Assembly: GCA_945873105.1 (NCBI GenBank) | Contig: CAMCBW010000021.1 | Span: 1 to 64,000, forward strand | Reading direction: 5' to 3' | Length of the DNA stretch: 64,000 bases | From: Tangfeifania diversioriginum | Lineage (GTDB): Bacteria; Bacteroidota; Bacteroidia; Bacteroidales; Prolixibacteraceae | Shown: piece by piece, positions 8,241 through 56,559 of the stretch | Position numbering within the stretch: the first letter of the stretch is position 1 | Layout: every line of letters begins with the position of its first letter | The notes under the pieces: model-generated | What the model was told of the DNA's origin: nothing | Database searches by the model: none | The model's input: only the letters and a program-made list of their open reading frames with translations | Translations under genes and position numbers: made by a program

Positions 8241-9236
8241 CTATTTCAAGATCTGCTTGATCTCAATATTCCGGTAGGACACCTTCCCGTGGTCGCCCTG
8301 CAGGTAGATGGGTCCGGGAATGAATTCATCGGGAGTGATGGCTCCGCCGGTGCAACCCAATGCCGGTTGGTTGTTGATGATGGTTTTGCCGTTAAGAACC
8401 ACTGTCACATGCCTGTCGCACAGGGTGATGTCCATGTCTTGCCACACTCCGGCGGCCTTTTCAGCCGATTCGGATGGGGTGATTCTGCTGTAGAGCGCTC
8501 CCATGTTGTGCGGATCCAGTTCTTTGCCATAACTGTCGACCACCTGAATTTCATAAATTCCACGCAGGTAGACCCCGCTGTTGCTGCCGGCCGGAACATT
8601 CACCTGGAGCTTCAGGTTGAAATCTTCGTATTTGTCAATCGTGCACAGGTTGCCATACTGAATGTGAGGTTGTCCCTCTTTCTGTACCGGATCGTTTACC
8701 AGAACTCCATCGACGACCGACCAACCGTTTACTTTTTTCTCTTCCAGCAGTTTCCAGCCGGCGAGATCTTTCCCGTTCAGCAATTTCACGGGTTTGCCAT
8801 AGACCAGTTTGGAGAGGTTGGGTGCTGCAGGCAGATCGGCTATTTTCTTCCCGGTAAAACGCATCTTATTCACACTGCCATCTTTTTCGGGGGAAATTAG
8901 CTCTCCGACCAGCTGATCAGCGTAAAGGGAGAAGCGGTACTGGGAACTTGCCATGTGCGTCCTTTTATTGTCGCGGACAAAATTCCGGGTACGGGTCACT
9001 ACCAGTGTCTCACCATCCATGTAAACGCTGGAAACCGGTTCCACACTGCCACCAAACCAGAGAAGGCTTGCATCGAGATATTTGTCCATCTGTTTGACCT
9101 CCAGCCAGCCCGCTCCACCGGGGAGGAAGAGCGCCCAGCGTCCCAGAAATGGTTTGGCAGAATCGATGGCTTTTGAAACATTCGGGAGGCTGAGCAACAG
9201 CATCAAAGTCCCGACCAGACTGATTTTTCGTAACAT
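8241..9236 (-). CDS. secreted DUF1080 (3-keto-disaccharide hydrolase-like) protein
   Basis: A 331-residue protein with a signal peptide (about 1-23). An N-terminal ~120-residue domain is followed by a C-terminal concanavalin-like DUF1080 domain (about 145-331): LLNGKDLAGWK opening, GSNSGVYLRGIYEIQV, WQDMDITL and GPIYLQGDHGKVSYRNIEI closing. Some DUF1080 proteins hydrolyse 3-keto-glycosides made by secreted glucose-3-dehydrogenase-type enzymes; others may only bind sugar. A strong terminator follows. The upstream gene on the same strand is a thioesterase 186 nt away with a minisatellite in between, so transcription may be independent. Confidence 0.85.
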   Translation of the reverse strand: MLRKISLVGTLMLLLSLPNVSKAIDSAKPFLGRWALFLPGGAGWLEVKQMDKYLDASLLWFGGSVEPVSSVYMDGETLVVTRTRNFVRDNKRTHMASSQYRFSLYADQLVGELISPEKDGSVNKMRFTGKKIADLPAAPNLSKLVYGKPVKLLNGKDLAGWKLLEEKKVNGWSVVDGVLVNDPVQKEGQPHIQYGNLCTIDKYEDFNLKLQVNVPAGSNSGVYLRGIYEIQVVDSYGKELDPHNMGALYSRITPSESAEKAAGVWQDMDITLCDRHVTVVLNGKTIINNQPALGCTGGAITPDEFIPGPIYLQGDHGKVSYRNIEIKQILK

Positions 9237-38807: not shown

Positions 38808-38884
38808 TGACGGCACAGGAAAAGTAATTTTTACCGTTTGGGTTGACATCGATTCTAATTTCCTTATTCAATAGACGATCTGCG

Positions 38885-41410: not shown

Positions 41411-42190
41411 ATGGAACCATCTTCATCAAACAAATACAATATTCCGATTCTGACGAAAGGAATGGAGTTGATAGAACTGATTGCCCAGCATCCTGAAGGC
41501 TTGGCAATACAGGAGATCGTAAACCAACTGGGCCATTCCAAAACATCTGTCTACCGAATCATCTGCTCCCTGGAGGAGATGGGCTACTTGAGGAAAAACC
41601 AGCAAAAGGGTACATTCTCCCTTACCAGGAAGATTTTTAAAATTGGACTCTCTACCATCGGCACGACAACGATCATTGAACATGCCTATGAGCCGATGCG
41701 ACGCCTGCGCGATCTGCTGCGGGAAACAGTGGTATTGGGAACCATGATGGGAACCAAAATCGTGATTCTGGAGCAGGTGATAGGTTCGCATCATTTTTCC
41801 TTCATACTAAAGCCTGGCATGGGGGTCTGTCTGCATGCCTCGGCTCCGGGGAAGGCATTCCTGGCCAACATCGAAGATTGGGAGCGGGATGAAATCCTCT
41901 CCAAGATTGAACTGACAAGGTTCACTGACAAGACTATCACCGACCAACCAAATTTTTTGCTTGAGCTTGAAAAAGTGAAGGCCTGCGGTTATGGGGTAGA
42001 TATGGGGGAAGAGCTCTCCGGGGTAAGGTGTGTTGGTGCGCCGATATTTAATCTGGCCGGCAAGATCGCCGCCTCCATCTGGATATCGGGTCCGGCGGAA
42101 AGGCTTTCCGATCAGTCAATCGATGAAATAGGCAAGCAGGTTGTGACTTGCGCCAATGAGATATCCGAGAAAATGGGGTACATGAAGTAA
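41411..42190 (+). CDS. IclR-family transcriptional regulator
   Basis: A 259-residue IclR-type regulator. It has an N-terminal winged helix-turn-helix (~12-75: GMELIELIAQHPEGLAIQEIV, HSKTSVYRIICSLEEMGYL) and a C-terminal GAF-like effector domain (~90-255: GVCLHASAPGKAFLA, GVDMGEELSGVRCVGAPIF). IclR regulators respond to small acids or sugar-derived metabolites and control catabolic operons. The next gene starts 15 nt after it, so it lies at the head of the operon it probably controls. It is the only transcription factor in the window. Confidence 0.93.
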   Translation: MEPSSSNKYNIPILTKGMELIELIAQHPEGLAIQEIVNQLGHSKTSVYRIICSLEEMGYLRKNQQKGTFSLTRKIFKIGLSTIGTTTIIEHAYEPMRRLRDLLRETVVLGTMMGTKIVILEQVIGSHHFSFILKPGMGVCLHASAPGKAFLANIEDWERDEILSKIELTRFTDKTITDQPNFLLELEKVKACGYGVDMGEELSGVRCVGAPIFNLAGKIAASIWISGPAERLSDQSIDEIGKQVVTCANEISEKMGYMK

Positions 42191-42205
42191 ACTACAAACC
42201 ACATC

Positions 42206-43972
42206 ATGCAAACTGTTGAAAAATATTTGAGGTTATTTTTTCTGTTTTTAATTTTTTCCTACTCCTATTCCTCCAATGGGCAGACACCATTGTTTACGAC
42301 CGATGTGCTGTCGGTTGAAGGAGATCGATTGGTGTTTTCCAACAAAGGCACCAACGCTGTAACAATGACAGATAGGGGAGGAAAGTCGGTGGGGGAGTGG
42401 TTGTTTGACGATCCGCCAACCGGATTCTGCAACCGCGGGAAGATGCTTTACGTGACAAGTTCCTACAGCCGTGGTTGGATCACGGCCATTGACCTTGGTA
42501 CAGGCAAATCTGCTTTCAAGACCGAAACCGGGATGGGGGCCTGTACACCAATCCTCAACAAGGATGGCACCCGCCTCTATGTTTTTAACCAGTTTATAGC
42601 GACAGTCAGTGAAGTAGATGCCAAATCAGGAAAACTCCTGCGACAGGCCAAGGTTCTGCGTGAACCGGTTGCCGGGGTCCTGACGCCCGACGGCAAATAT
42701 TTGTTCGTAATCAATTCATTGCCGGCTCAACGTTCAGATGCAGAATATGTTACCTCTGAAGTGTCGGTTATTGAACTTTCCGGTTTTACTGTCATTCGAA
42801 ACATTCGACTGGAAAACGGTAGCAATGCGCTGCGTGGCATATGCATCTCCACGGACGGACGTTATGTCTTTGTTTCCCATAACCTGGGTCGTTTTCAGGT
42901 GCCTACCTCACAGCTTAACCAGGGATGGATGAATACCAATGCACTGAGCATCCTGGATGTCCCCTCCTTCAGCTTTGTCGGTTCTTTGCTGTTGGATGAA
43001 CCCGATCGGGGTGCAGCCGGCATTTGGGGTGTAGTTTGTGACGACAGCCGGCTCTATGTTACCCATTCCGGAACCCATGATCTGAGCCTGATTGATTTGA
43101 AAATTCTGCGGGAGAGGCTTGACAACTATCCTGATAAGAAGAACTTGTCGTACGATTTACGCTTCCTCTACGATATCCGAAAACGAATTCCACTGGTAGG
43201 CAATGGTCCGCGCAATCTCGCCATCGCTGAAGGGAAATTGTACATCCCGGCCTATTTCTCAGATACACTTAATATTGTGGATGTTGCTACCGAAAATGTT
43301 ACCACCATCGCATTGAATCCAAACCGGAAAGAGAACATTGAACAGCTTGGCGAGAAGGTTTTCAACGATGCAACCTATTGTTACCAAAACTGGCAGTCGT
43401 GCAACGGATGCCATCCGGGAGATGCCCGCACCGATGCCATGAACTGGGACCTGATGAACGACGGAATTGGCAATCCCAAGAATTGCAAGAGCCTGCTCTA
43501 TTCCCATGTGACACCACCCAGCATGATTTCAGGTATTCGTGCGACTGCCGAATTGGCCACTCATGCAGGTTTTAAATTCATCCAGTTCAGTGACATTGCA
43601 CCGGATCTGCTGGAGAGCGTCAATGCCTATTTAAAATCATTGCGTCCACTGCCCAGTCCATTTCTTGTCAATGGCAAGCAATCGGCAAAGGGAGTAAGGG
43701 GAAACACCCATTTTGTAAATTTTGGATGTGACAATTGTCACAGCGGACCCTATTTCACCGATCTGCGGAAGCACCATATTGGGGAGAAGGTTGAAACGGA
43801 AGCGGGTTGGGATACCCCGACGCTGATCGAGGTCTGGCGTACAGCACCTTATCTTTTCGATGGACGTGCCACTACCCTAAAGGAGGTATTTTCAGTTTAC
43901 AAACATGGGATTGGCACAAAAATTTCAGATAAGGAATTGGATGAGTTGGTGGAGTATATAAATTCATTGTAA
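42206..43972 (+). CDS. di-haem c-type cytochrome with N-terminal YVTN beta-propeller
   Basis: A 588-residue exported protein. After a signal peptide (about 1-26) comes a YVTN/NHL-like seven-bladed propeller (~30-375; VAGVLTPDGKYLFVIN, GICISTDGRYVFVSH, VTHSGTHDLSLIDL). The C-terminal domain is like cytochrome-c-peroxidase/MauG proteins, with two haem motifs: CNGCH at 399-403 and CDNCH at 508-512. It also has AELATHAGFKF and PTLIEVWRTAPYLFDGRA. It should act in the periplasm as an electron-transfer or oxidising enzyme. Its place between IclR and the sugar-catabolic genes suggests oxidation of the pathway's substrate, which is inference. Confidence 0.85.
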   Translation: MQTVEKYLRLFFLFLIFSYSYSSNGQTPLFTTDVLSVEGDRLVFSNKGTNAVTMTDRGGKSVGEWLFDDPPTGFCNRGKMLYVTSSYSRGWITAIDLGTGKSAFKTETGMGACTPILNKDGTRLYVFNQFIATVSEVDAKSGKLLRQAKVLREPVAGVLTPDGKYLFVINSLPAQRSDAEYVTSEVSVIELSGFTVIRNIRLENGSNALRGICISTDGRYVFVSHNLGRFQVPTSQLNQGWMNTNALSILDVPSFSFVGSLLLDEPDRGAAGIWGVVCDDSRLYVTHSGTHDLSLIDLKILRERLDNYPDKKNLSYDLRFLYDIRKRIPLVGNGPRNLAIAEGKLYIPAYFSDTLNIVDVATENVTTIALNPNRKENIEQLGEKVFNDATYCYQNWQSCNGCHPGDARTDAMNWDLMNDGIGNPKNCKSLLYSHVTPPSMISGIRATAELATHAGFKFIQFSDIAPDLLESVNAYLKSLRPLPSPFLVNGKQSAKGVRGNTHFVNFGCDNCHSGPYFTDLRKHHIGEKVETEAGWDTPTLIEVWRTAPYLFDGRATTLKEVFSVYKHGIGTKISDKELDELVEYINSL

Positions 43973-43996
43973 AAAGAGGGGAGATCCAACAGGGAT

Positions 43997-45124
43997 ATGA
44001 TACTTAGAAACTATACCGTTTATCATACGGAGGAGAAACCATTTGAGCAAATGTGTCAATCTTTGCTTACCCAGATGGATGCGTTGCCAAAGGTGATTAA
44101 GATTGTCTTTTTTGGTCCGGCTCAGAACAACCGGGAGTACCTGCTTCAACTGCAACTGATCCGGAAATGTGCCAGGGCACACTTCCGGGAGCAAGTTCCC
44201 CTCATCAGTTATGTCTCACAGAAACCGCTGAAGGGAATGTTGAATGCGGAGGTTACCACGCTTTCGCAGGAGTCGGTTGCAAATATTTCCTATGGGAATG
44301 GCTACATCGTTCTAGAAAACAGTGGATGCAGGGAACTGATTACAGAAGGAATTCTTCCTCCGGATATTAATGCTTCTCACAAGGAGCAGTCGAACCAAGT
44401 GTTTGCCCAACTGGAAGAGATCCTTCTCGGTGAGAATCTGCCGGTCAGCAGCATCATCCGCCAATGGAACTACATTGAGAATATCTCCTCTTTTGAAAAT
44501 GATTACCAAAATTATCAGGCCTTTAACGATGCACGCAGCCATTTTTATGCCAAGGCGGATTGGAGCCTGGGGTATCCTGCCGCGACGGGCATAGGCACGC
44601 AGGCGGGAGGCGTCATGGTGGAGTTGATTGCCATTGCAGGAACAGGACTCATAAACAGGGCGCTGGATAATCCATTGCAAATAGCAGCTCACAAATATTC
44701 TCAGGGTGTATTGCTTGGAGCACTGGATCCTTGCACGCAGCAGCGTACAACGCCGAAATTTGAAAGAGCAAGGATCATTGGCCTGCCTGAGCTGCAAACT
44801 GCCTACATCTCTGGTACTGCGGCCATTCGTGGGGAGTCCAGTCTCATTTCGAAAGATGTCATTGAGCAGACGCAAATTACCATGCAGAACATCGATCATC
44901 TCATCTCAGCCGGGAATTATCCGGTTCAGGGAGCGCTCCGCGAATTCAAGCTCTTGCGCATCTATGTCAAAAATCCCAAACAGATGGAGGAGGTGCGTGA
45001 CTACATGAAGGTGAACTATCCGGATATCAGTAAACTCTATATCTGCGCAGACATTTGCCGTGAAGAGTTACTGATTGAAATTGAGGGTATTGCTGAAATT
45101 TTCCTCCCCGCAATACCAAACTAA
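43997..45124 (+). CDS. chorismatase (FkbO/Hyg5)/RidA-like protein
   Basis: A 375-residue, apparently cytoplasmic protein with no signal peptide. The central and C-terminal parts match the chorismatase/YjgF-RidA fold: ARSHFYAKADWSLGYPAATGIGTQAGG, LRIYVKNPKQMEEVRDYMK, and the closing CREELLIEIEGIAE, which is the classic RidA ending. Chorismatases hydrolyse chorismate, and RidA proteins deaminate reactive enamines. In a sugar-catabolic operon with no aromatic genes, an enol-type hydrolysis or tautomerisation of a pathway intermediate is more likely than chorismate chemistry. It is 24 nt after the di-haem gene and 31 nt before the cupin gene. Confidence 0.6.
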   Translation: MILRNYTVYHTEEKPFEQMCQSLLTQMDALPKVIKIVFFGPAQNNREYLLQLQLIRKCARAHFREQVPLISYVSQKPLKGMLNAEVTTLSQESVANISYGNGYIVLENSGCRELITEGILPPDINASHKEQSNQVFAQLEEILLGENLPVSSIIRQWNYIENISSFENDYQNYQAFNDARSHFYAKADWSLGYPAATGIGTQAGGVMVELIAIAGTGLINRALDNPLQIAAHKYSQGVLLGALDPCTQQRTTPKFERARIIGLPELQTAYISGTAAIRGESSLISKDVIEQTQITMQNIDHLISAGNYPVQGALREFKLLRIYVKNPKQMEEVRDYMKVNYPDISKLYICADICREELLIEIEGIAEIFLPAIPN

Positions 45125-45155
45125 CCCAAAAATTATCAATTTAAATTACATAGTT

Positions 45156-45845
45156 ATGAATCTACGCTCATTGATTTTTACGGCAACAGCCATCGCGCTG
45201 CTCGCAGGATGCGCTCCAAAAGCAGAAATTAAAAACGACCAAAAAACCGTTATGAAACCTTTTACCAAAAAGTACACCAACGCAGATTACTACAAGGATG
45301 GCAAAATTCAGCCTGAAATTGTCAAAAAAGCCTACCTCGAAATGCTTGAAAGTTATGGCGTTCCTTACAGTCCGACGCTAGCGGCCGGAATCTGGATGAC
45401 AGATTTCAGCCTGGGAGATTTTGAGCATGTTGGAATGGCCGGTATTTTTTGGGTAAACGACTCTGTACATGGCTATTTTGGTCATGAAATCTACCTCTTA
45501 CCAGGACAGATGATTCCCGAGCATTTTCATGTAGCCTCTAATTTTCCTGCAAAGTATGAGTCATGGAGGGTGACCCATGGATTTTGCTACAATTTTGGAA
45601 TCGGAGAACCAAGCCCCAATCCACCGGTATTGCCAGCCAGCCAGAAGGAGTACATCACCTCCCTGAACTTCGTTTCTCAGTCGGTCGACGAAGTGGTCTC
45701 CCTGAAGAAAGTGGAGTCACCTCACTTCCTGTTTGCAGGCGACAATGGGGCAATTGTTTCGGAATATGCGACCTACCATGATGGAGCAGGACTGCGTTTC
45801 ACCAATCCAAAGATCATATTCAACAACATTTTGGCACAGAATTGA
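45156..45845 (+). CDS. lipoprotein cupin resembling D-lyxose isomerase
   Basis: A 229-residue protein from ATG 45156, where a lipoprotein signal begins (LLAGCAPK, Cys19); a longer frame from 45075 overlaps the previous gene. The body resembles the cupin D-lyxose isomerase family: WMTDFSLGDFEHVG near residue 75-90, then a metal site with MIPEHFHVA, and a late SPHFLF/HDGAGLRF segment. Cytoplasmic relatives interconvert D-lyxose and D-xylulose or D-mannose and fructose. An exported, lipid-anchored form is unusual and would isomerise sugar outside the cytoplasm. It sits just before VOC, DhaK, DhaL and aldolase genes, consistent with making a ketose for them. Confidence 0.65.
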   Translation: MNLRSLIFTATAIALLAGCAPKAEIKNDQKTVMKPFTKKYTNADYYKDGKIQPEIVKKAYLEMLESYGVPYSPTLAAGIWMTDFSLGDFEHVGMAGIFWVNDSVHGYFGHEIYLLPGQMIPEHFHVASNFPAKYESWRVTHGFCYNFGIGEPSPNPPVLPASQKEYITSLNFVSQSVDEVVSLKKVESPHFLFAGDNGAIVSEYATYHDGAGLRFTNPKIIFNNILAQN

Positions 45846-45878
45846 GGACCTATTTTAATTCAAACTACATTTTAAATT

Positions 45879-46199
45879 ATGAGAAAATTCAACCACGTGG
45901 GTATTCCCACTTCCATTCCCAAAGAGGGAGAATTCTATGTAGAAGGGATGAAGCTTCATTTGACAGACTTCAACAACAGTCCCAACAAAATTGAGTTTTT
46001 GCGTTTTGAAGCGGATTCTCAGATGCCTGAGATCTTAAAGACCCACGGCCACATTGCCTACGAAGTACCCAACCTGGCCAGCGCCATGGAGGGTAAGAAA
46101 ATTGTACTTGAACCTTTTCAAGGCGGAGAGGGTTTGACCTGCGCTTTCATCGAAGAGGAGGGAATTGCCATTGAATTAATGTGTTTCGATCAAAAATAA
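45879..46199 (+). CDS. small VOC-superfamily (glyoxalase-like) protein
   Basis: A 106-residue protein with one vicinal-oxygen-chelate module: KFNHVGIPT opening with the metal-ligand histidine, HIAYEVPNLASAM in the middle and CAFIEEEGIAIELMCF closing with the acidic ligand. It is shorter than two-module glyoxalases and should dimerise. Possible roles are epimerisation, isomerisation or aldehyde handling of a sugar intermediate. It lies 8 nt before dhaK and is co-transcribed with it. Confidence 0.8.
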   Translation: MRKFNHVGIPTSIPKEGEFYVEGMKLHLTDFNNSPNKIEFLRFEADSQMPEILKTHGHIAYEVPNLASAMEGKKIVLEPFQGGEGLTCAFIEEEGIAIELMCFDQK

Positions 46200-46207
46200 A
46201 CTGAATT

Positions 46208-47215
46208 ATGATAACAAAATTTATCAACGCAACAGACCAGATTACCCGCGAAACGTTGGAGGGTTATACCATGGCTTATGCCGACAAGGTAAAACTTGGA
46301 GGTGAGAATATCGTTGTTCGCGCTACCCCAAAAAGTATGGACAAGGTAGCCATCGTTACCCTGGGAGGTTCAGGCCATGAGCCTGCACTCAGTGGCTTTG
46401 TCGGAGAGGGAATGCTCGATTGTTCAGTGGTAGGCGATATCTTCGCTGCTCCGGGTGCACAACGCTTGTTCCAGGCGCTTCAGCTTTTCAAACGCGATGC
46501 AGGTATTTTGTTGGTAGTTCTCAACCACTCCGGGGATGTGATGAGTGCCAACATGGCCACGCAGTTGGCAGAACGTGCGGGCATCAAGGTGGTCAAGCTT
46601 TTGACCCACGAAGATATCAGCGCAGGGCTTGATGTACCGGATGAGGACCGGCGCGGACTGGCAGGATGTATCCCTTTGTACAAAATCATTGGTGCCGCGG
46701 CAGAGCAAGGGAAAAGCATTGAGGAGATTGCCGAGATCGGTGAGCGCTTCATTGGCCAGACAGCTACCCTTGCTGTGGCCATGCGTTCTTGTACCCATCC
46801 CCAAAATGGGGCAGTAATTGCCGAACTTCCGGAAGGGGAGATTGAAATCGGCATGGGCCAGCACGGAGAGGGTGGCGGTGGTCGCCAGATGCTGACTTCG
46901 GCCGACGATGTTGCATCGCAGATGATTACACAGCTCATGAGCAAGCTCAAACCGGCCAAGGGAGACAAGGTATTGCTGATCATCAACGGGGTAGGAGCAA
47001 CCACCCACATGGAGATGAGCATTGTTTTCCGCAAGGCTGCCATGCTGCTTGCCGAGAAGGGTGTTGTGGTTGCCGACGGAAAAATTACGGAGCTTCTCAC
47101 CGTGCAGGAGCAGGCAGGTTTCCAGATGATTCTTTCTATCCTGGATGAAGATCATGTTGAGCTGTTGAAAAATGCTCCTTCCAATGCTCCGTATTGGGTA
47201 AATATCGGCAAATAG
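46208..47215 (+). CDS. dhaK: dihydroxyacetone kinase-type subunit DhaK
   Basis: A 335-residue DhaK-family protein. It has GGSGHEPALSGFVGEGMLD (substrate loop), NHSGDVMSANMA and GMGQHGEGGG, where His219 corresponds to the histidine of E. coli DhaK (His218) that binds the carbonyl of the substrate covalently. DhaK binds dihydroxyacetone or other short ketoses for phosphorylation by DhaL. It is followed 24 nt later by dhaL. No DhaM phosphotransferase subunit is present, so the pair may use ATP directly or act on a different ketose such as an erythrulose-type sugar. Fold assignment is firm; substrate is open. Confidence 0.92.
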   Translation: MITKFINATDQITRETLEGYTMAYADKVKLGGENIVVRATPKSMDKVAIVTLGGSGHEPALSGFVGEGMLDCSVVGDIFAAPGAQRLFQALQLFKRDAGILLVVLNHSGDVMSANMATQLAERAGIKVVKLLTHEDISAGLDVPDEDRRGLAGCIPLYKIIGAAAEQGKSIEEIAEIGERFIGQTATLAVAMRSCTHPQNGAVIAELPEGEIEIGMGQHGEGGGGRQMLTSADDVASQMITQLMSKLKPAKGDKVLLIINGVGATTHMEMSIVFRKAAMLLAEKGVVVADGKITELLTVQEQAGFQMILSILDEDHVELLKNAPSNAPYWVNIGK

Positions 47216-47239
47216 CAACTTAACCAGTAGAGGAGAGGA

Positions 47240-47869
47240 ATGAATACAATTTCCACAGATCAGTTCAGGGCAATGCTCCAGACTGCATTGACACTTGTCA
47301 GGGAGAAGGAGAGCTATCTTTCACAACTGGATGCGGTGACCGGGGATGGCGACCATGGAACCGCCATTGTTGCGGCACTCAATGCTGCCATCACAGCCTC
47401 CGAAGCTGCGACCGATCTCAAGGCAATGTTCAATGACATTGGCTTTGGTATCATGCTCACCACCAGCGGGTCTACCAGTACACTGCTGGGAGGATTTTTC
47501 CTTGGGATGGCTGAGGGCATTGAAGGGGCTGAAGCAGATGCAGGGCAACTTAAAACCATGTTCAAGTCAGGGTTGGCTGGAGTGTCAAAAAATACAAAAG
47601 CGGCCGTTGGTGACAAGACAATGATGGATGCTTTGATGCCTGCTGTAACCGCAATGACAGGAACTGAGTCGGAGGATATTGCCGAAATACTTGCCGCTGG
47701 TGCCGCAGCTGCCCGGAAGGGAGCGGAGGCCACCATTGCCATGAAGGCCAACTTTGGCCGTGCTCGCAATTATGGGGAACGTTCCATCGGAACAATGGAT
47801 GCCGGTGCATCTTCCTGGGCAACCATTTTTGAAGCATTTGCAAGGCATACAGGGCCTTCAGCCAAGTAA
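47240..47869 (+). CDS. dhaL: dihydroxyacetone kinase-type subunit DhaL
   Basis: A 209-residue nucleotide-binding subunit. TGDGDHGTA (residues 35-43) supplies the Mg-binding aspartates, TTSGSTSTLLGGFF the phosphate loop, KTMMDALMPAV a helix typical of the family, and GRARNYGERSIGTMDAGASS the closing loop. Together with DhaK it phosphorylates a ketose bound to DhaK. In PTS-type systems DhaL holds ADP that is re-charged by DhaM; DhaM is missing here. An AGGAGAGG stretch lies immediately before the ATG (47231-47238), too close for an ordinary ribosome-binding site. A 147-nt gap without a gene follows. Confidence 0.92.
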   Translation: MNTISTDQFRAMLQTALTLVREKESYLSQLDAVTGDGDHGTAIVAALNAAITASEAATDLKAMFNDIGFGIMLTTSGSTSTLLGGFFLGMAEGIEGAEADAGQLKTMFKSGLAGVSKNTKAAVGDKTMMDALMPAVTAMTGTESEDIAEILAAGAAAARKGAEATIAMKANFGRARNYGERSIGTMDAGASSWATIFEAFARHTGPSAK

Positions 47870-48016
47870 CGACAAAAGTTGACCGAAATAGAAATTATCT
47901 GAACAAGCTGCCACAGGCTTCGGCATTGAGGTCCTCTGTTTTTTAGGAATCTTAGTTCCTCTGTGCAAAGTTGGCAGGTCACATTATCAATAGAAATCAA
48001 AATTAAAAAACAAGAA

Positions 48017-48895
48017 ATGGCTGATTTAGAAGGAAACAAAGAAAACCTCGACAAAGATTATGGAATTGGGATACCCGTTGAAACAACCGGATTCTTCCTC
48101 AAAGGACTCAACAACTGTGATTGGGGAATCAAAAACCGCATGTCGCGGATCTACAATCCCAAGACCGGCCGCACCGTGATGCTGGCATTTGACCATGGTT
48201 ACATCATGGGGCCAACCTCCGGTCTGGAACGGCTGGACCTTTCCATTACCCCTTTGATCGAATATGCGGATTCACTCATGTGTACCAGAGGTGCGCTGCG
48301 CTCGACAGTTCCACCTACCGCCGACAAACCCATCTGTTTGCGCTATTCGGCAGGAAGCAGCGTATTGACCTATCTCAACAACGAATGCACCATTGATGTG
48401 GAGGACGCGATCCGTATCAATGCCTCGGCCATGGCTGTAATGGTTGCCGTGGGTGACCCGCTCTACGAAGCAAAGACCATTGAAAACCTGGTTCGAACTG
48501 CCGATTACGGATACAAATATGGAATTCCTACACTGGGTGTCACCGCAGTAGGGAAGGAGATGGTTCGCGATGCACGTTACCTTGGAACAGCTACCCGTAT
48601 CTGTGCCGAGAATGGCGCGACTTTTGTCAAGACCTACCATTGTGAAAATTTCGAAAGGGTTGTCAATGGTTGTCCGGTTCCGATTGTTATTGCTGGTGGT
48701 AAAAAACTACCGGAGATTGAAGCGCTTGAACTTTGCTACATGGCGATCAACGATGGCGCTACCGGAGTGGACATGGGCCGTAATGTCTTCCAGGCAGAAC
48801 ATCCTGTTGCCATGATTCAGGCTGTCAGGGCGGTTGTACACGACAACCTTACTCCTGCGCAGGCACTTGAACTGTACAATGATTTAAAATCATAA
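48017..48895 (+). CDS. LsrF/DhnA-type class I aldolase or thiolase
   Basis: A 292-residue TIM-barrel protein from ATG 48017; a longer frame from 47963 adds an unlikely 18-residue leader. It matches LsrF-type class I aldolases in length and in GRTVMLAFDHGYIMGP, MAVMVAVGD, FVKTYHCENF (Schiff-base Lys205, cf. Lys203 of E. coli LsrF) and PIVIAGGKKLP. The end has DGATGVDMGRNVFQ, the phosphate-binding loop. LsrF cleaves a phosphorylated C5 dione to give DHAP and acetyl-CoA; DhnA-type relatives are fructose-bisphosphate aldolases. Downstream of a DhaKL kinase it would cleave the ketose phosphate produced. It is separated by only 15 nt from the next cytochrome gene. Confidence 0.88.
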   Translation: MADLEGNKENLDKDYGIGIPVETTGFFLKGLNNCDWGIKNRMSRIYNPKTGRTVMLAFDHGYIMGPTSGLERLDLSITPLIEYADSLMCTRGALRSTVPPTADKPICLRYSAGSSVLTYLNNECTIDVEDAIRINASAMAVMVAVGDPLYEAKTIENLVRTADYGYKYGIPTLGVTAVGKEMVRDARYLGTATRICAENGATFVKTYHCENFERVVNGCPVPIVIAGGKKLPEIEALELCYMAINDGATGVDMGRNVFQAEHPVAMIQAVRAVVHDNLTPAQALELYNDLKS

Positions 48896-48910: not shown

Positions 48911-51900
48911 ATGAAGAAAGTAGTATTTTCCGTTTTGGTGCTTTTTGTCACCATTACCTGGAGCGCAGCACAAACCGACTCAAGGTTGAAAACAGATGCC
49001 CAGTGGCTCAATGCGGCCAATGTAAGGGCTGCCTTTGAGGATATGCGCAAAATCAAGGGGTATGATGCTGCCAAATTCGAGCTTAAGGTCAAAGAGTTGG
49101 AAGAGCTGTGTAAACCAGGATTTGAAGGTGTTGCAACCGCTAACCCGGAAATTCAGTTGCGTGCAACGAAGGCCATTGCATTGAAACGGGAAATATTGCT
49201 ATCGAACCCATTGCTCGATGGGGACAAAATCATCGTGGGTCGTTACATCCTCAAAGGAGGTGCACGAAAGGTCAATACCAGTGCAATGGGAACCCAGTCG
49301 AACAACTGGACCAACCAGACTTCTGCCCCCAGGGGAGGTTTCAATGCCGAGATTGCCGAGCTAACCAATTTGCGCGGGGAGATAAATAGCAGGTCAATTT
49401 TCATTCCAGGGAATGGCTCCTCCGTGGCTGATCTGTTGCTCCACTGGGATGGAGAAAGGATATTGTTCAGCGCGGTTGATGAAAACAAGCGGTGGAATGT
49501 ATTCGAGGTTAAGACCGATGGAACAGGATTTCGCAAAGTAATCAATGTTGATGAGCCGGATCTTGAATTTTTTGATGCTACCTATCTTCCGGATGGCCGG
49601 ATTATTGCCGTATCGAACATCGGTTACCAGGGAGTTCCCTGCGTCGGAGGCAGCGATGCCGTTGGCAATTTGGTAAGCTATGATCCGAAAACCAATGCCT
49701 TGAGACGCATGACTTTTGACCAGGATGCCAACTGGCATCCGACGGTGATGAACAATGGCCGGATCATGTATGTCCGTTGGGAGTACACCGACCTGACCCA
49801 TTACTGCTCCCGCATTGTCATGCATGCCAATCCCGACGGGACGGATACCAGGGCTCTCTATGGGAGTGGATCGTGGTTTCCCAACAGCACCTTCGACGTA
49901 AAGCCAATCCCGGGAGGGAATACCACCTTTGTTGGGATCATCTCCGGACACCACGGTGTCGCACGTTCTGGTCGGATGATGCTATTTGATCCGGCGAAAA
50001 GCCGTAAGGAAGAGCAGGGAATGATCAATGAATTTCCCTTCAGCAAAAGGAAAATTATTCCCCTGGTCAAAGATGGTTTGGTAAATGGTGTCTGGCCTCA
50101 GTTTATCAAACCCTTTCCGCTCAGTGACAAATACTATCTCGTTACCGCTAAGCTGGATTCCAGCTCCTTATGGGGTATTTATCTGATTGATTCCTTTGAC
50201 AACCTAACCCTGTTGGCAGAATATGAAGGGGAAGGATTGATTCAGCCCATTTTGGTAAAAAAACGTCCTGTTCCCCCGGCCATTCCTGATAAGATTAAAC
50301 CTGCCGAAAAAAACGCTACAATTTTTATCCAGGATATCTACGAAGGAGAGGGATTACCGGGTGTGCCGCGTGGTACAGTGAAGCAGCTGCGTATCCTGGC
50401 CTATGAATATGCCTATCTGCGTTCCCCCTCCAACCACATCGCCCAGGGTATTCAGAGCGGTTGGGACATCAAGCGCCTGCTGGGTACGATACCCGTAGAG
50501 GAAGATGGCTCAGTCATTTTTACGGTGCCAGCCAATACCCCCATATCCATTCAGCCGCTCGACAGCGAAGGTCGTGCCCTGCAATGGATGAGAAGCTGGT
50601 TGAGCGCCATGCCGGGTGAAATTGTATCCTGCGTGGGATGCCATGAGAACCAGAACTCCATGCCCATGCCGAAGCGCGTATTGGCCTCGATGAAGCCACC
50701 GCAACCAATCCATCCACCCGAGGGGGGTGTGCGGCCTTTTACTTTTGAACTGGAAATCCAACCCATTCTCGACCGCGCCTGCGTGGCCTGTCACGATGGT
50801 TCAATGAAATTGGATTTCAGGGGCGGAATACCAGTAGAATCTCCTTCCAACATGGGAAAAATGCGGTTGACCAAGAGCTACCTGGCTTTTCATCCCTACG
50901 TAAACCGCCAGGGACCCGAGGCAGATATCGCCGTGATGAAGCCCTATGAATACCATGCATCCACCAGCGAGATTGTCAAAATACTGAAGCGTGGTCACGG
51001 TGGTGTAACGCTGACTGACAAGGAGTGGCGTACCCTTTACAACTGGATTGATTTCAACGCCCCCTACCACGGCGCATTTGCGGCAAATCCTGATAAGTTT
51101 TACTCCTGCGAAAACCAAGTAACCCGGAGAAGGGAATTGACCAACAAATATGCCAACAATGCCGGGGTCGACTGGCCACAGGAGATCCGGGATTTTGCGC
51201 TTTATCTTGAGAAACAGGGTAAGCCGGTTCCATACAAACCTGAACCTGTTGCGAAACCGGTCTATGAAACCGTTGTTGTCAAGGGATTTCCATTTAACCC
51301 AGCGCCTGTTGAGCGCAAAAGCCTTGAGATTGCCCCGGGAGTCAGGATAAATTTCGCAAGAATACCGGCGGGAACGTTCGTAATGGGCAACAACAGCCGT
51401 GGCAAGCTTAATGCCCCAGCCTCCAAAGTCAGGATAGAAAAGGCCTTCTGGATGGCAGAGACGGAGCTGACCAATGAACAATACAACGTGATTTTCCCGG
51501 AGCACAACAGCCGGTACATTGCGCAGTTCTGGAAAGATCACGTAAATCCGGGCTATCCAGCCAACAGGCCGACCCAACCCGTAATCCGCATCTCCTGGAA
51601 CCAGGCCAATGCATACTGTGCCAAGTTGGGAGAGAAGATCAAAGCTAAAATCAAGCTGCCCACCGAAGCTCAATGGGAATGGGCCGCCCGGGCAGGCAGT
51701 GAGACCGATTTCTGGTTTGGAAAATCGGACAGTGATTTTGCTTCCTACGAAAACCTTGCCGATAAACAGCTTTCAAAAATGGCAGTGAGCGGGGTAGATC
51801 CCCAACCCATGAAGGAGGACAATCCAAGCTTCCCATTTTATGACTATTTGCCAAGGAACCGCTCGGTAGATGATGGCAGCATGATTGTGACCGATGTGGC

Positions 51901-52141
51901 CAAATACAAGCCAAATCCGTGGGGTCTCTACGACATCTATGGCAATGTGGCAGAATGGACCCGCAGCGATTTCGCGCCATACCCCTACAAGCAGGATGCC
52001 ATTTCGGCTGATCAGCAAAAGGTTATTCGGGGAGGTTCATGGATCGATCGCCCAAAGAATGCAACCTCTTACATCCGAAACAGTTATTATGCCTGGCAAC
52101 CTGCCAACAATGTAGGATTTAGAATCATCATGGAAGATTAG
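48911..52141 (+). CDS. propeller / di-haem / FGE-like fusion protein A
   Basis: A 1,076-residue exported protein with signal peptide (about 1-21). Residues ~160-480 form a TolB/hydrazine-synthase-alpha-like propeller (LLHWDGERILFSA, FDATYLPDGRIIAVSN, YVRWEYTDLTHY, GHHGVARSGRMM). Two c-type haem motifs follow: CVGCH at 574-578 and CVACH at 624-628. Residues ~815-1076 are an FGE-sulfatase (SUMF1-type) fold (IPAGTFVMGNNS, LPTEAQWEWAARAG, GNVAEWT, VIRGGSWIDR). The two cysteines that FGE needs for formylglycine formation are absent at the C-terminus, so this module is not a normal sulfatase-activating enzyme. The propeller/di-haem layout recalls the hydrazine synthase alpha subunit, but no anammox context exists. 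Function unknown. Confidence 0.85.
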   Translation: MKKVVFSVLVLFVTITWSAAQTDSRLKTDAQWLNAANVRAAFEDMRKIKGYDAAKFELKVKELEELCKPGFEGVATANPEIQLRATKAIALKREILLSNPLLDGDKIIVGRYILKGGARKVNTSAMGTQSNNWTNQTSAPRGGFNAEIAELTNLRGEINSRSIFIPGNGSSVADLLLHWDGERILFSAVDENKRWNVFEVKTDGTGFRKVINVDEPDLEFFDATYLPDGRIIAVSNIGYQGVPCVGGSDAVGNLVSYDPKTNALRRMTFDQDANWHPTVMNNGRIMYVRWEYTDLTHYCSRIVMHANPDGTDTRALYGSGSWFPNSTFDVKPIPGGNTTFVGIISGHHGVARSGRMMLFDPAKSRKEEQGMINEFPFSKRKIIPLVKDGLVNGVWPQFIKPFPLSDKYYLVTAKLDSSSLWGIYLIDSFDNLTLLAEYEGEGLIQPILVKKRPVPPAIPDKIKPAEKNATIFIQDIYEGEGLPGVPRGTVKQLRILAYEYAYLRSPSNHIAQGIQSGWDIKRLLGTIPVEEDGSVIFTVPANTPISIQPLDSEGRALQWMRSWLSAMPGEIVSCVGCHENQNSMPMPKRVLASMKPPQPIHPPEGGVRPFTFELEIQPILDRACVACHDGSMKLDFRGGIPVESPSNMGKMRLTKSYLAFHPYVNRQGPEADIAVMKPYEYHASTSEIVKILKRGHGGVTLTDKEWRTLYNWIDFNAPYHGAFAANPDKFYSCENQVTRRRELTNKYANNAGVDWPQEIRDFALYLEKQGKPVPYKPEPVAKPVYETVVVKGFPFNPAPVERKSLEIAPGVRINFARIPAGTFVMGNNSRGKLNAPASKVRIEKAFWMAETELTNEQYNVIFPEHNSRYIAQFWKDHVNPGYPANRPTQPVIRISWNQANAYCAKLGEKIKAKIKLPTEAQWEWAARAGSETDFWFGKSDSDFASYENLADKQLSKMAVSGVDPQPMKEDNPSFPFYDYLPRNRSVDDGSMIVTDVAKYKPNPWGLYDIYGNVAEWTRSDFAPYPYKQDAISADQQKVIRGGSWIDRPKNATSYIRNSYYAWQPANNVGFRIIMED

Positions 52142-52162: not shown

Positions 52163-55100
52163 ATGATCAGACCAGGCCAATTCTTTGGTGCCATATTGCT
52201 TGCCATGGTAAGCATTGGTGGAATTTCGGCACAAACAGCAGAAAGCGATTTGATCAACCGATTGCGGTTTTACGAAGCCAGGCAATGCCGGATGTCGGTA
52301 GAGCTGCTTCAGAAAAGTTTTCCGGACACTTACATCCTGCCTGGAAACTGGGAAACCACCCTCGACCAGTTGGAAAAATCCCGTACCACCATCCTCTCCA
52401 AAATTGGTGCAGGAGACAAGACAGTCATGGCCGATGCCGAAAAACTGCTCATTTCCCTGGATGCAATTTTCAAGGCAAATCCATTGATCCGTGAGAAGCA
52501 GTTAGGGGCAGTCAGACGCGAGCTGGGCAAAAGAGCCCGAAATGCTGTCAACGGTACGCTGGGCGTTGGACCATCCAACTTCCAAAACAATTCAGAGTTA
52601 CCCAAAAAAGGATGGAGCAATCAGCTGGTCACCCTTCGGATCTCCAACGGCAAAACTGTTCAGCAGACCCTTTTTACTCCCGCTTCGGATGTACTGATCT
52701 CGGATCCTGAACCCCATTTTAGTGCAGGAAGGATCCTTTTCTCCTCCATCGGCAGCAACGACCGCTGGCACCTTTTTGAACTGGATGTTACGAGCGGCAG
52801 GGCGGTTCAGGTGACGCCAGATGCTTACAGGGATTTCGACAGTTTTGATGGCTGCTATACGGCTGACGACCGCTTTGTATTCTGTTCGACCGGTACATTT
52901 CTCGGATTGCCCTGTACCCATGGAGGCCATAAAATGTCAGGCCTGTTTTCCTATGATCCAAAGAGTGGAAAGACAAGGCAATTGACCTACGATCAGGACA
53001 GCAACTGGGGCCCGGTGGTAATGAACAATGGTCAGATACTCTACCAGCGCTGGGAATACGCCGATTTGCCGCATTCCAATTCGCGTATCCTGTTCACCAT
53101 GAATCCCGACGGAACCACACAAAGGGCCTATTATGGATCCAACTCCTATTTTCCGGCAGCCTTCTTCAACTCCCGCCCCATACCCGGCCACAACAGTGCC
53201 ATCATAGGGACTGCCTCGGGTCACCACAGCATCGCCCGCGCAGGACGATTGCTGGTGATCGATCCGATGGTGGGGGAAAAGGAGGCAGAGGGGGTAGTTG
53301 CCGAGATCCCATACTATGGAATCAAGGTGCAACCTTCCGAAAGGGATAGATTGCCGGATGGTGTTTTCCCCCAGTTTTTGCAGCCTTTTCCACTCAGCGA
53401 CAAGTATTTTGTAGTATCGATGCGGGCCACCGAACAGTCGCTTTGGGGTATTTACCTCGTGGATATTTACAACAATATAACACTATTGGCAGAAGAGGAG
53501 AATTGTGCTTTTGTAGAACCTTTTCTGCTTGAAAAGAGAAAGACTCCTCCCGTCATTCCTGACCACATCAATACGGAAAGCGCCACGGCCAATGTATTTA
53601 TTCAGGACATCTACATGGGCGACGGGCTGAAAGGTATTCCCCGCGGAACGGTCAAAAAACTGCGCATCGGAAACTATAGTTTCAGTCCGCTGGGACAAGG
53701 GGGTATCCTGGGTACCCTTGGGGTCGATGGCCCGTGGGACATCAAACGAATCATGGGTACCGTCAATGTGGAAGAGGATGGTTCTGCCATGTTTACCATT
53801 CCTGCCAATACTCCCGTGTTTGTCCAGCCACTCGATGGGGAAGGCAAGGCCCTGCAGGTAATGCGGAGCTGGTTTACAGGAATGCCGGGCGAAACTGTTT
53901 CCTGCCTGGGCTGCCACGAATCCCGCAAGAGCATTCCGGTCCCCAAAGCAAGTATGGCAACGAGGAAAAAACCTCAACCCATCCAGGAGTGGTATGGAAA
54001 AGAACGCGGCTTTAGTTACCGGCATGAAGTGCAGCCGGTACTCGATAAGTATTGCATCTCCTGCCACGATGGCTCCCGCCCCGACCGCCCCTACCTGAAA
54101 GGTGATACAATGATTACCGACTGGAAGTCTGATATTGCTGGAAGTCTGAACAAAGAGAGAGGGGGTGGTCATTTTTCCCAGTCCTATGCCAATCTCCACA
54201 GATATGTTCGCCGGCCGGGTATCGAGAGTGACATGCACATGCTCACACCCATGGAGTTCCATGCAGATCAGACCGAATTGATGCAGTTGCTCGCGAAAGG
54301 TCACCACCACGTGGTATTGGACAAGGAAGCCATCGAAAAGCTCTCCTGCTGGATCGACTACAATGCTCCCTTTCACGGCCGGCGTTCAGATATTCCGGAT
54401 TACAATAAGACAGCAGCAGGTATCGCGCTTCGCAGCCAATACCTGGAATTATTTGGCGCGCCAAAGACTGACTTCGAATCCCTTCCTGACATTCCCCGGG
54501 ATATCCAACCGGTTGTACCTGAAAAGCGCGAAATTCCAAAAGGAGAGAGCTCGTTGAAGGGATGGCCGTTAACAGATGCCAACAATGTACAGCTGGCACT
54601 GGGATATTTTCAAAGAAAAATAGCTATCGCTGAAGGTGTTACCCTTGAACTGGTGAAAATTCCGGCAGGACAATTTATCATGGGAAGTGAGAACCAGCCG
54701 GATGAAATGCCTCAGACCAAAGTCAGCATAGCGAAGAGTTTCTGGATCGGACGATTCGAGATCACCAACAGTCAATTCCGTGCGTTCGATCCTGCACACG
54801 ACAGCCGTGATGAAGACCGGCACGGATACCAGTTTGGCAGGAGAGGGTATCCAACGAACCATCCCGATCAGCCGGCAGTGCGCATATCCTGGCAACAGGC
54901 CATGGATTTCTGCAAATGGCTGAGTGAAAAAACAGGGAAGAAATTCAACCTTCCGTCTGAATCACAATGGGAATGGGCTTGCCGTGCAGGACAATCAACA
55001 CCCTACTCTTTCGGGAAATGGGGGGCTGACTTCAGCAAATATGCCAACCTGGGAGATATTACGTTGAAGGAGTATGCCGCCTGCACTGCCTACAAAAATT

Positions 55101-55462
55101 ATGAGAGCGTACGGATCATCGACAATGCCAGCAAATACGACGATTGGGTTCCCCGCGATACCCTTTACGATGACCGGGGATTTGTTGCCCGGCAGGTAGG
55201 GAGCTACCGGCTTAACGCCTGGGAGTTGTACGATACCCACGGAAATGTATGGGAATGGACACTTTCAAAATACAGACCCTATCCCTATAACGACAATGAC
55301 GGCAGGAATGATGCAGGGGCAGATGGATTGTCCAAACGCGTGGTGCGTGGCGGATCCTGGTACGATCGTCCCTACCGGGGAACCTCCTCCTTCAGGCTCT
55401 TCTACCGCGATTACCAGAAAGTATTCAATGTAGGATTTCGCGTTGTGCTGATGGAGGATTAA
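52163..55462 (+). CDS. propeller / di-haem / FGE-like fusion protein B (paralogue of A)
   Basis: A 1,099-residue exported protein with the same build as its neighbour: signal peptide (about 1-23); propeller with FSAGRILFSSIGSNDRW, FDGCYTADDRFVFCS, YQRWEYADLPHSN and GHHSIARAGRLL; haem motifs CLGCH at 581-585 and CISCH at 631-635; and an FGE-like domain from ~828 (IPAGQFIMGSE, LPSESQWEWACRAG, GNVWEWTLS, VVRGGSWYDR). Again the FGE catalytic cysteine pair is missing. A and B are 21 nt apart and clearly homologous along their length but diverged, so they may form a heterodimer. A redox or binding role in the periplasm is inferred. Confidence 0.85.
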   Translation: MIRPGQFFGAILLAMVSIGGISAQTAESDLINRLRFYEARQCRMSVELLQKSFPDTYILPGNWETTLDQLEKSRTTILSKIGAGDKTVMADAEKLLISLDAIFKANPLIREKQLGAVRRELGKRARNAVNGTLGVGPSNFQNNSELPKKGWSNQLVTLRISNGKTVQQTLFTPASDVLISDPEPHFSAGRILFSSIGSNDRWHLFELDVTSGRAVQVTPDAYRDFDSFDGCYTADDRFVFCSTGTFLGLPCTHGGHKMSGLFSYDPKSGKTRQLTYDQDSNWGPVVMNNGQILYQRWEYADLPHSNSRILFTMNPDGTTQRAYYGSNSYFPAAFFNSRPIPGHNSAIIGTASGHHSIARAGRLLVIDPMVGEKEAEGVVAEIPYYGIKVQPSERDRLPDGVFPQFLQPFPLSDKYFVVSMRATEQSLWGIYLVDIYNNITLLAEEENCAFVEPFLLEKRKTPPVIPDHINTESATANVFIQDIYMGDGLKGIPRGTVKKLRIGNYSFSPLGQGGILGTLGVDGPWDIKRIMGTVNVEEDGSAMFTIPANTPVFVQPLDGEGKALQVMRSWFTGMPGETVSCLGCHESRKSIPVPKASMATRKKPQPIQEWYGKERGFSYRHEVQPVLDKYCISCHDGSRPDRPYLKGDTMITDWKSDIAGSLNKERGGGHFSQSYANLHRYVRRPGIESDMHMLTPMEFHADQTELMQLLAKGHHHVVLDKEAIEKLSCWIDYNAPFHGRRSDIPDYNKTAAGIALRSQYLELFGAPKTDFESLPDIPRDIQPVVPEKREIPKGESSLKGWPLTDANNVQLALGYFQRKIAIAEGVTLELVKIPAGQFIMGSENQPDEMPQTKVSIAKSFWIGRFEITNSQFRAFDPAHDSRDEDRHGYQFGRRGYPTNHPDQPAVRISWQQAMDFCKWLSEKTGKKFNLPSESQWEWACRAGQSTPYSFGKWGADFSKYANLGDITLKEYAACTAYKNYESVRIIDNASKYDDWVPRDTLYDDRGFVARQVGSYRLNAWELYDTHGNVWEWTLSKYRPYPYNDNDGRNDAGADGLSKRVVRGGSWYDRPYRGTSSFRLFYRDYQKVFNVGFRVVLMED

Positions 55463-55668: not shown

Positions 55669-56559
55669 ATGATGAACAAAACTAATTTCAATACCTTACT
55701 ATTCTTGCTTTCACTCCTCTTCCTCCAATCTTGCCATGTAAGTGAGAAACTGCTCATTGGTGGCTGTGGCTGGGACAAGGTGGCCATAGTTGATAAAAAA
55801 ACAGAGGCAATCGAATGGATTCACCAACTCAACAAGGGGGATGATTGCAACGATGTGGAGATCACCAAAGCCGGAAATGTTTTGTATGCCTACAAGGGGG
55901 GAGCCAGGTTGGTAACCAGGTCTCAGGAGGTAATATGGGACTACAAGACGAAAAAGGGAGAGGAGCTTTACACCGCTACGGAACTGCCCTCTGGTGAATA
56001 TCTCCTGGGTATCTGTGCCCATCCCTCACGGATCATCACACTCAATGCCAATGGCATACAAACCAAAGAGCAAAACTTCGATTCGGGCGTTGCCAATGTA
56101 CATGGTCAGTTCCGGCAGATATACCCTACGGCCAACCATACTTACCTGATTCCACTCATGGGAAAGGGCGAGGTCATCGAACTGACTCAAACAGGTGAAG
56201 TCATCCGCAGAATAGCAGTAGGGGGCAATCCATTTTCGGTCAAAGTGTTGAAGGATGGAAGCTGGCTGGTGGCCTGTGGAGATGCGCACAAGTTTGTAGT
56301 GGTGGATCCTGGTAAGCAAACGGTTACGAAAACCTTATCTGCCAGTGACCTGACCAGTGTCTCCCTTCTTTTCGTGGCAGAACCGTTCTGTTACAAGAAC
56401 GGGAATGTACTGGTGGCCAACTGGAATGGACACAGCAAGGATAAAACACAACCCAAACTGATTGAATTTGATTCGAAAAATCTGGTAGTCTGGAAGATGG
56501 CACCCAATGAGGCCATTTCGAATATTTCGGCAGTACATTCATTCAGAGGAAAAAAATAA
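55669..56559 (+). CDS. beta-propeller lipoprotein
   Basis: A 296-residue lipoprotein. Start 55669 or 55672 (tandem ATG) is chosen because a lipoprotein signal follows (LLFLQSCHV); the frame upstream to 55564 is repeat sequence. The body has about six blades of a quinoprotein/NHL-like propeller: KVAIVDKKTEAIEWIHQL, VEITKAGNVLYAY, ELPSGEYLLGICAH, VKVLKDGSWLVACG, NGNVLVANWNGHS. It has no haem motif. Such propellers bind sugars or support redox partners. It is 9 nt upstream of GH106, which links the cytochrome block with the last glycosidases. Confidence 0.8.
   Translation: MMNKTNFNTLLFLLSLLFLQSCHVSEKLLIGGCGWDKVAIVDKKTEAIEWIHQLNKGDDCNDVEITKAGNVLYAYKGGARLVTRSQEVIWDYKTKKGEELYTATELPSGEYLLGICAHPSRIITLNANGIQTKEQNFDSGVANVHGQFRQIYPTANHTYLIPLMGKGEVIELTQTGEVIRRIAVGGNPFSVKVLKDGSWLVACGDAHKFVVVDPGKQTVTKTLSASDLTSVSLLFVAEPFCYKNGNVLVANWNGHSKDKTQPKLIEFDSKNLVVWKMAPNEAISNISAVHSFRGKK

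Follow-up and report, generated by a model that had tools for sequence, protein, structure and literature searches.

Examination of a 64,000-nucleotide stretch of DNA from Tangfeifania diversioriginum (contig CAMCBW010000021.1; the whole stretch is called the window here), by means of a list of open reading frames (ORFs) and of Pfam and NCBIfam domain searches, revealed a block of genes whose surprising element is the tie of hydrazine-synthase (HZS) family proteins to a sugar kinase/aldolase operon (Table 1). All genes of the block lie on the + strand. Between 41411 and 48895 they code for an IclR-type regulator, a propeller/di-haem protein, a chorismatase/Rid-fold protein, a lipoprotein cupin, a VOC protein, DhaK, DhaL and LsrF, and the colinear regulator, cupin, VOC, kinase and aldolase genes described in an earlier reading of the sequence (the original prediction) are all present. 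The intergenic gaps are of 8-33 bp, except for 147 bp upstream of lsrF. The original prediction ended the block at 48895; two exported HZS_alpha-domain proteins, HzsA1 and HzsA2, continue it directly after lsrF, with gaps of 15 and 21 bp. The gene it had listed as a cytochrome is there, but encodes a relative of the fused HZS beta-gamma protein, and what it entered separately as RidA-like and as chorismatase-like is a single gene. The hydrazine-synthase-family proteins are the part of the block that had been missed. In the genome, Dak1, LsrF (E<=1e-40), the cupin and the HZS-beta-gamma protein give single matches, and HZS_alpha gives two, both in the window.

Table 1. Genes of the block and the gene following it, with their coordinates in the window.
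Product	Coordinates	Strand	Basis and features
IclR-family regulator	41411..42190	+	PF01614 4.8e-39, PF09339 1.6e-12; under every listed NCBIfam cut-off
HZS beta-gamma-like exported fusion, beta-propeller and di-haem region	42206..43972	+	two CxxCH; signal peptide by eye
Chorismatase FkbO/Hyg5-like, Rid-fold protein	43997..45124	+	no signal peptide seen by eye
D-lyxose-isomerase-like exported lipoprotein cupin	45156..45845	+	lipobox LAGC by eye
VOC-fold protein	45879..46199	+	putative metal-site residues H6, E39, H58, E99
DhaK (Dak1)	46208..47215	+	PF02733 7.7e-93
DhaL (Dak2)	47240..47869	+	PF02734 5.6e-37
LsrF-family class I aldolase/thiolase	48017..48895	+	NF006081; start ATG 48017
HzsA1, exported HZS-alpha-like, C-terminal FGE-fold domain	48911..52141	+	PF18582 6.6e-37, PF03781 8.4e-41; two CxxCH
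HzsA2, second HZS-alpha-like/FGE-fold protein	52163..55462	+	PF18582 5.3e-32
Mala_s_1-like propeller lipoprotein	55672..56559	+	PF22701 1.2e-49

The best NCBIfam match of the propeller/di-haem protein is the hydrazine synthase beta-gamma fusion (NF052342, 1e-29, 103 bits against a cut-off of 1250), and its successive parts match PDB chains 5c2v_B (HZS beta, 2.6e-18) and 5c2v_C (HZS gamma, 3.5e-14). An AlphaFold2 model made with 16 sequences has a mean pLDDT of 77, with parts of the haem region below 50, and 5c2v_B is also its first Foldseek match in the PDB (E 2.2e-20, TM 0.81 by target). The di-haem region is related to MauG, MbnH and CcP and matches Pfam CCP_MauG. The middle part of HzsA1 matches HZS alpha (5c2v_A, 1.3e-8) around both haem sites; its relatives in other blocks are 56-79% identical, the 79% referring to a partial copy (L016). 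HzsA2 is 61% identical to a protein of locus L095 that stands between fucosidase genes. HzsA1, HzsA2 and the beta-gamma fusion each carry two CxxCH motifs for c-type haem, as in HZS. With the hydrazine synthase of anammox bacteria (5c2v, subunits alpha, beta and gamma) the block shares the HZS_alpha domain with two CxxCH, the propeller fused to a di-haem gamma-like region, and the neighbourhood of the genes.

The residues that mark hydrazine synthase, as given in section 8 of PMC12758564, are missing, and the block proteins are therefore relatives of it, not hydrazine synthase. The haem ligand alpha-Tyr591 of HZS stands four residues beyond the His of CxxCH; none of 17 rows has a Tyr among the four residues that follow its first CxxCH (CVGCHENQN in HzsA1, CLGCHESRK in HzsA2). 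The gamma-His144 position, located in the alignment to HZS gamma by counting from His106, is Ile in the window; across 16 rows it is Ile in 12, Val in two, Thr in one and Ser in one, and never His. The window also has no Cys at the position of gamma-Cys165. Unlike those of anammox bacteria, the alpha-like proteins of the block bear a fold of the formylglycine-generating enzyme (FGE) and sit in a sugar kinase/aldolase context. Catalysis by FGE needs an active-site Cys pair; since residues 817-1073 of HzsA1 hold a single Cys (903), such catalysis is unlikely there, and the corresponding region of HzsA2 has Cys 917, 940 and 974.

HZS homologues in other bacteria were described in 2025, and descent from existing haem-binding periplasmic proteins was suggested (PMC12758564). 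For some homologue clades, sections 7-8 of that paper describe neighbours of the CRTAC1-like and ABC substrate-binding kinds, and no sugar operon is named there; in its account, no top structural match to the HZS alpha subunit has another experimentally confirmed function. Section 8 places Trp at gamma-144 in MauG and in the homologues of clades I-III, from which the Ile of the window is a further difference. A limited literature search and these parts of PMC12758564 yielded no report of HZS relatives linked to sugar operons.

The aldolase of the block belongs to the LsrF family. With NF006081 the protein scores 437 bits, above the cut-off of 297; it is 57% identical to E. coli LsrF, matches the PDB structure 3gkf at 1.2e-106 and keeps the Schiff-base Lys, which aligns with a residue that is Ala in 4p2v. 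LsrF converts CH3-CO-CHOH-CO-CH2OP and CoA to acetyl-CoA and dihydroxyacetone phosphate (DHAP). Annotation of the E. coli proteins makes LsrF the thiolase, and LsrG the isomerase, of phosphorylated C5 diones. In an LsrF tree, twelve block rows form one clade (100/100), with the E. coli and other-family sequences outside it. The window groups there with L016 and family f142 and not with G023, although the latter belongs to the window's own family; this grouping suggests transfer, and the block is probably mobile. At L129 and L130, from two other families, LsrF adjoins an alcohol dehydrogenase (ADH) and a VOC-like protein of about 130 amino acids (by eye), possibly another link between LsrF and VOC.

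DhaK and DhaL resemble dihydroxyacetone kinases in their catalytic motifs, which supply the substrate His, the catalytic His/Asp and the Asp cluster of DhaL: GG[SA]GHEP, NH[SA]GD and QHGE are kept in all ten DhaK rows, and GDGDHG in all ten DhaL rows. They differ in an HGEGG loop in place of HGEPG (10/10), in a DhaK below the equivalog cut-off (TIGR02363, 279 against 406 bits), in clustering with LsrF and in the lack of DhaM. The absence of the latter agrees with what had been predicted, no DhaM-like ORF being seen by eye in the ORF list of the block. Kinases of the DhaK type phosphorylate hydroxymethyl ketones. A limited literature search found no paper that combines LsrF with DhaK.

The VOC protein has no Pfam or NCBIfam match. 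Its putative metal-site residues are invariant in 13 of 13 rows, and its AlphaFold2 model (pLDDT 95) has as nearest folds BH1468, RHA04853, methylmalonyl-CoA epimerase and glyoxalase entries. VOC enzymes of the methylmalonyl-CoA epimerase/glyoxalase type act through metal-bound enediolates.

The cupin, whose likely start is ATG 45156 rather than TTG 45075, likewise lacks Pfam and NCBIfam matches; in the PDB it matches 7nzo (3.3e-14) and 2y0o (1.4e-12). It resembles the D-lyxose isomerase TsLI (7nzo, PMC8378251) and the B. subtilis-type 2y0o in the metal ligands H123/H125/E135/H190, and K133 and E203 are present as well; none of the 14 rows lacks any of these six, which correspond to H75, H77, E88, H143, K86 and E156 of TsLI, as numbered in section 10 of that paper. 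A phylum-wide search matched 8 of 395 genomes, and seven of the regions were fetched. One is a block (L032), three hold short cupins (L033-L035) and three have no clear context (L036-L038). By eye, the short lyxose-isomerase-like cupins of L033-L035 lack a signal peptide and adjoin methyltransferase-like genes, with corrinoid-binding-like genes too in L033 and L034. Adjacent cupin and VOC genes are also found at the planctomycete loci L019 and L022, and these pairs may have a common substrate; by eye, their cupins carry a twin-arginine-like signal. DUF1080-like and LarA-like genes seem, again by eye, to lie near the planctomycete cupins of L020 and L022, and the window codes for a 3-keto-disaccharide hydrolase (PF06439) at 8241-9236. 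Just upstream of the block, 38843-41158 encodes a PD40/TPR protein with one CxxCH-type motif (CANCH), 28% identical over part of its length to a protein beside the cupin of L018.

The chorismatase-like protein resembles FkbO and Hyg5 over about 220-240 residues (PF21168 and PF01042; Hyg5 5ag3 at 2.5e-23). Its C-terminal motif CR..LL.EIEG, present in 9 of 10 aligned rows, includes a Cys that is not the same in two Hyg5 entries. Unlike these chorismatases, it scores far under the family cut-off (TIGR04444, 115.5 against 325 bits) and has no recognised aromatic-product genes nearby. The original prediction left it without a place, but relatives recur in eight loci besides the window at 40-69% identity; a further one, at L105, is 26% identical and has the Pfam Rid domain only. 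The gene was not found in the blocks of L009 and L011.

The block is conserved as a unit. In a draw of 393 genomes of the order, LsrF was found at E<=1e-40 in 11, and all eleven regions were fetched. Ten LsrF genes above 520 bits, that of the window included, share one set of neighbours within the limits of each contig or fetched slice, and the eleventh (L057, 264 bits) is a lone distant copy outside any block. Seven family labels of the order are represented. The isomerase-kinase-aldolase unit claimed at the outset is supported, with kinase residues, cupin metal ligands and the Schiff-base lysine of LsrF intact. Gene order varies: IclR-HZSbg-Chor-Cupin-HZSa-CcsBA-VOC-DhaK-DhaL-LsrF in L032, HZSbg-Chor-Cupin-VOC-DhaK-DhaL-LsrF-HZSa-CcsBA in L056 and IclR-HZSbg-Cupin-VOC-DhaK-DhaL-LsrF-Mala-HZSa in L009. 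Relatives of the IclR regulator head the block in L009, L015, L017, L032 and L051, and three loci from outside the order draw (L015, L016, L017) hold parts of it.

The HZS_alpha domain occurs in 27 of the 393 genomes, among them all ten with a block LsrF (hypergeometric P 3.9e-13, ancestry not corrected for). In two of these, G701 and G615, HZS_alpha and LsrF lie on different contigs, and the other contig of G701 (L107) is probably the rest of its block. A gene for cytochrome-c maturation of the CcsBA type lies near HZS-alpha in L032, L053, L055, L056, L107 and L050 (cut by the contig end); these proteins are 44-47% identical to the L056 copy (PF01578/PF05140), and a copy at L105 is 32% identical. 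CcsBA is thus common, not universal. The divergence of seven block genes is correlated (r 0.32-0.94, rows of less than 70% coverage dropped), which we give no weight because shared ancestry alone could explain it.

Beyond the block, HZS-family genes keep varied company. The order draw gave 47 HZS_alpha matches, of which nine lie in block regions and 21 in the 20 further regions that were examined; annotation of the further loci relied on similarity to the query set and on N-termini judged by eye, except where a Pfam domain is cited. At L096 the order is FGGY kinase-ADH-DeoC aldolase-HZSa-HZSbg-Mala-GH43, and at L013, found through its cupin, MFS-FGGY-SGL-cupin-SDR-DeoC-ADH-SDR-HZSa. HZSa genes stand in loci with a SusC-like gene at L097 and L099; at the latter a kinase/isomerase-type sugar operon, 6-8 kb away on the opposite strand, is probably unrelated. 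L105 combines HZSa with a Rid-domain protein and CcsBA. Relatives of Mala_s_1 lie beside, or one gene from, an HZS-alpha or HZS-beta-gamma gene in L009, L050, L052, L089, L090, L095 and L096. A phylum-wide draw for HZS_alpha matched 14 of 316 genomes, with matches above 100 bits only in this genome.

The original prediction had the sugar freed by linked glycosidases, a claim that finds no support. In the window, the fucosidase genes (GH29 and GH95) keep company with the second HZS-alpha type, HzsA2, and with a Mala_s_1 gene, as they do at L095 (GH29-GH95-Mala-HZSa2-HZSbg-GH29), whose slice contains no cupin, DhaK, DhaL or LsrF. Other copies have other glycosidases: in L051, L052 and L054 a GH92 gene comes after the block, a raffinose-synthase/GH36-type gene lies 5.6 kb from that of L011, and none was recognised near those of L032, L055 and L056, where seven flanking proteins were domain-scanned and the rest judged by eye. 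Because they vary between copies, these neighbours do not name the sugar. RhaA is found in eight and a FucI-type domain in four of the ten block genomes. This genome has both elsewhere, and the block as a replacement for ordinary rhamnose or fucose use was rejected. For an apiose route, a limited literature search gave no paper that treats apiose together with apulose.

We propose, at a probability of roughly 0.35, that the block is a conserved carbohydrate-catabolic operon in an exported and a cytoplasmic half, which would form an oxidative route ending in cleavage by LsrF. In the exported half, the HZS-alpha-like and beta-gamma-like c-type haem proteins and the metal cupin would act on an aldose. 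The haem proteins, with four haem motifs together and perhaps in one complex, would most likely oxidise one carbinol and pass the electrons to a c-type carrier, and the cupin would isomerise the aldehyde to a hydroxymethyl ketone. In the cytoplasm, DhaKL would phosphorylate this ketone with ATP, the VOC metalloprotein would move or epimerise the second carbonyl via an enediolate, and LsrF would turn R-CO-CHOH-CO-CH2OP into DHAP and R-CO-CoA; if the second carbonyl were lacking, LsrF would split the ketose 1-phosphate into DHAP and an aldehyde. The general substrate R-CO-CHOH-CO-CH2OP, which we infer by joining the thiolysis of LsrF with the phosphorylation of hydroxymethyl ketones by DhaK-type kinases, would be reachable from a sugar by one oxidation and one aldose-ketose shift. 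The proposed route would follow the logic of autoinducer-2 (AI-2) breakdown by LsrK, LsrG and LsrF, except that different enzymes would catalyse its first two steps. In its favour are the conservation of the unit, the presence of HZS_alpha in all ten genomes with a block LsrF, the CcsBA genes near HZS-alpha, the FGGY, ADH and DeoC neighbours of HZS genes at L096 and L013, the catalytic residues of cupin, VOC, DhaK, DhaL and LsrF, and the annotated roles of E. coli LsrF and LsrG.

Several observations weigh against this proposal. The cupin, a lipoprotein unlike TsLI, has lost two substrate residues of the latter: the position of K62 is His in 12 of 14 rows (Met in L013, Lys in L014), and at that of D163 the window has Gly, with an Asp one residue away; mutation of the D163 equivalent is reported to have abolished activity (PMC8378251). 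The stretches read around the cupin and VOC pairs of L019 and L022 contain no relatives of DhaK, DhaL, LsrF or HZS. L011, from outside the order draw, is an exception with cupin-VOC-DhaK-DhaL-LsrF-Mala and no HZS gene within about 10 kb, and L091 has HZSbg-Chor-cupin-HZSa in a genome (G742) without an LsrF match at E<=1e-40. No CcsBA relative was detected in the window (E<=1e-3) or in L009, L011, L051, L052 and L054 (E<=1e-6), and the Pfam and NCBIfam scans recognised no inner-membrane transporter among the block proteins. HZS genes stand without a recognised kinase/aldolase module in L089, L090, L092, L093, L094, L098, L100, L102, L103 and L106, two of which lie among genes of housekeeping type (L094, and L093 with ribosomal-protein genes), and HZSa lacks related neighbours on the short contigs of L101, L104 and L108. 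L013, whose DeoC scores above its cut-off and whose MFS protein is of the nucleoside-symporter type, may be a nucleoside/deoxyribose cluster. Finally, LsrF relatives outside the block occur in 80 of the 395 genomes of the phylum draw (82 including this genome and G407). The six such regions examined have other neighbours, namely SDR-containing proteins of about 700 amino acids in four (L128, L131-L133) and ADH in two, so that membership of the LsrF family does not by itself establish thiolysis; the LsrF relatives of the four are perhaps the class I fructose-bisphosphate aldolase of their genomes.

These neighbours count in favour of a close rival, slightly less probable than the oxidative route, which keeps to the plain isomerase-kinase-aldolase sequence of the original prediction: the cupin would make a ketose, DhaKL would phosphorylate its C1 and LsrF would act by a retro-aldol reaction, yielding DHAP and an aldehyde, and the HZS-like proteins would only shuttle electrons or protect against peroxide. 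The intact isomerase metal site, the kinase and aldolase residues and the CCP_MauG match of the beta-gamma protein speak for it, and L011 has the cytoplasmic part with no HZS genes nearby. It would nevertheless leave the VOC protein without a role, and the presence of HZS_alpha in every block-LsrF genome of the order draw would be odd for an optional accessory.

A doubtful alternative gives the beta-gamma-like protein another office than substrate oxidation, that of a MauG-type protein-modifying or peroxide-reducing enzyme which matures or protects an exported partner, either the cupin or an alpha-FGE protein. The kinship of its di-haem region with MauG, MbnH and CcP and the FGE-fold domain on the alpha-like proteins point this way; the residues found at gamma-144, in place of the Trp that PMC12758564 gives for MauG in its section 8, and the single Cys in the FGE-fold domain of HzsA1 point the other.

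About as doubtful is that the block degrades foreign AI-2 or a related furanone or diketone, with the same LsrF, DhaKL for LsrK and VOC for LsrG. The likeness to the E. coli lsr operon lies in the kinase-isomerase-LsrF logic and in an LsrF above the NCBIfam cut-off with the Schiff-base lysine of the E. coli enzyme. LuxS is matched in only one of the ten block genomes; any AI-2 in the other nine would therefore be foreign, and self-recycling of AI-2 was rejected on this count. Unlike lsr, the block has no recognised LsrK, LsrG, LsrR or LsrACDB transporter genes, and AI-2 breakdown offers no role for its exported cupin and haem proteins. Least probable by far is a biosynthetic cluster in which the chorismatase-like and LsrF/DhnA-type enzymes would produce a C7 or aromatic compound and DhaKL would supply the DHAP: the chorismatase resemblance and a weak match to the DhnA-type aldolase model of such a pathway (BagB/FevI) are set against the sub-cut-off score of the chorismatase-like protein, the lack of its gene in two blocks, the exported isomerase and the glycan-locus neighbourhood.

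Taken together, the original observation is borne out, and more strongly than it was put. Its interpretation is supported as far as the isomerase-kinase-aldolase unit is concerned, finds no support for the glycosidase-freed sugar, and had overlooked the HZS family. The block is a candidate new way of opening an unusual sugar. The occurrence of HZS relatives in a cluster of sugar type hints at a carbohydrate role for the family outside anammox. A bolder and rather improbable version would see in the HZS family outside anammox a group of haem oxidoreductases that act on carbohydrates outside the cytoplasm and supply exchangeable kinase-aldolase modules (DhaKL-LsrF, FGGY-DeoC), and from which anammox HZS was recruited, the block itself making a diketose that is cleaved with CoA; if true, sugar would here be broken down oxidatively with a thioester as a direct gain. 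The block bears on the origin of hydrazine synthase, as it places homologues of this enzyme in a defined metabolic setting, together with a regulator and with cytoplasmic partners that can be tested.

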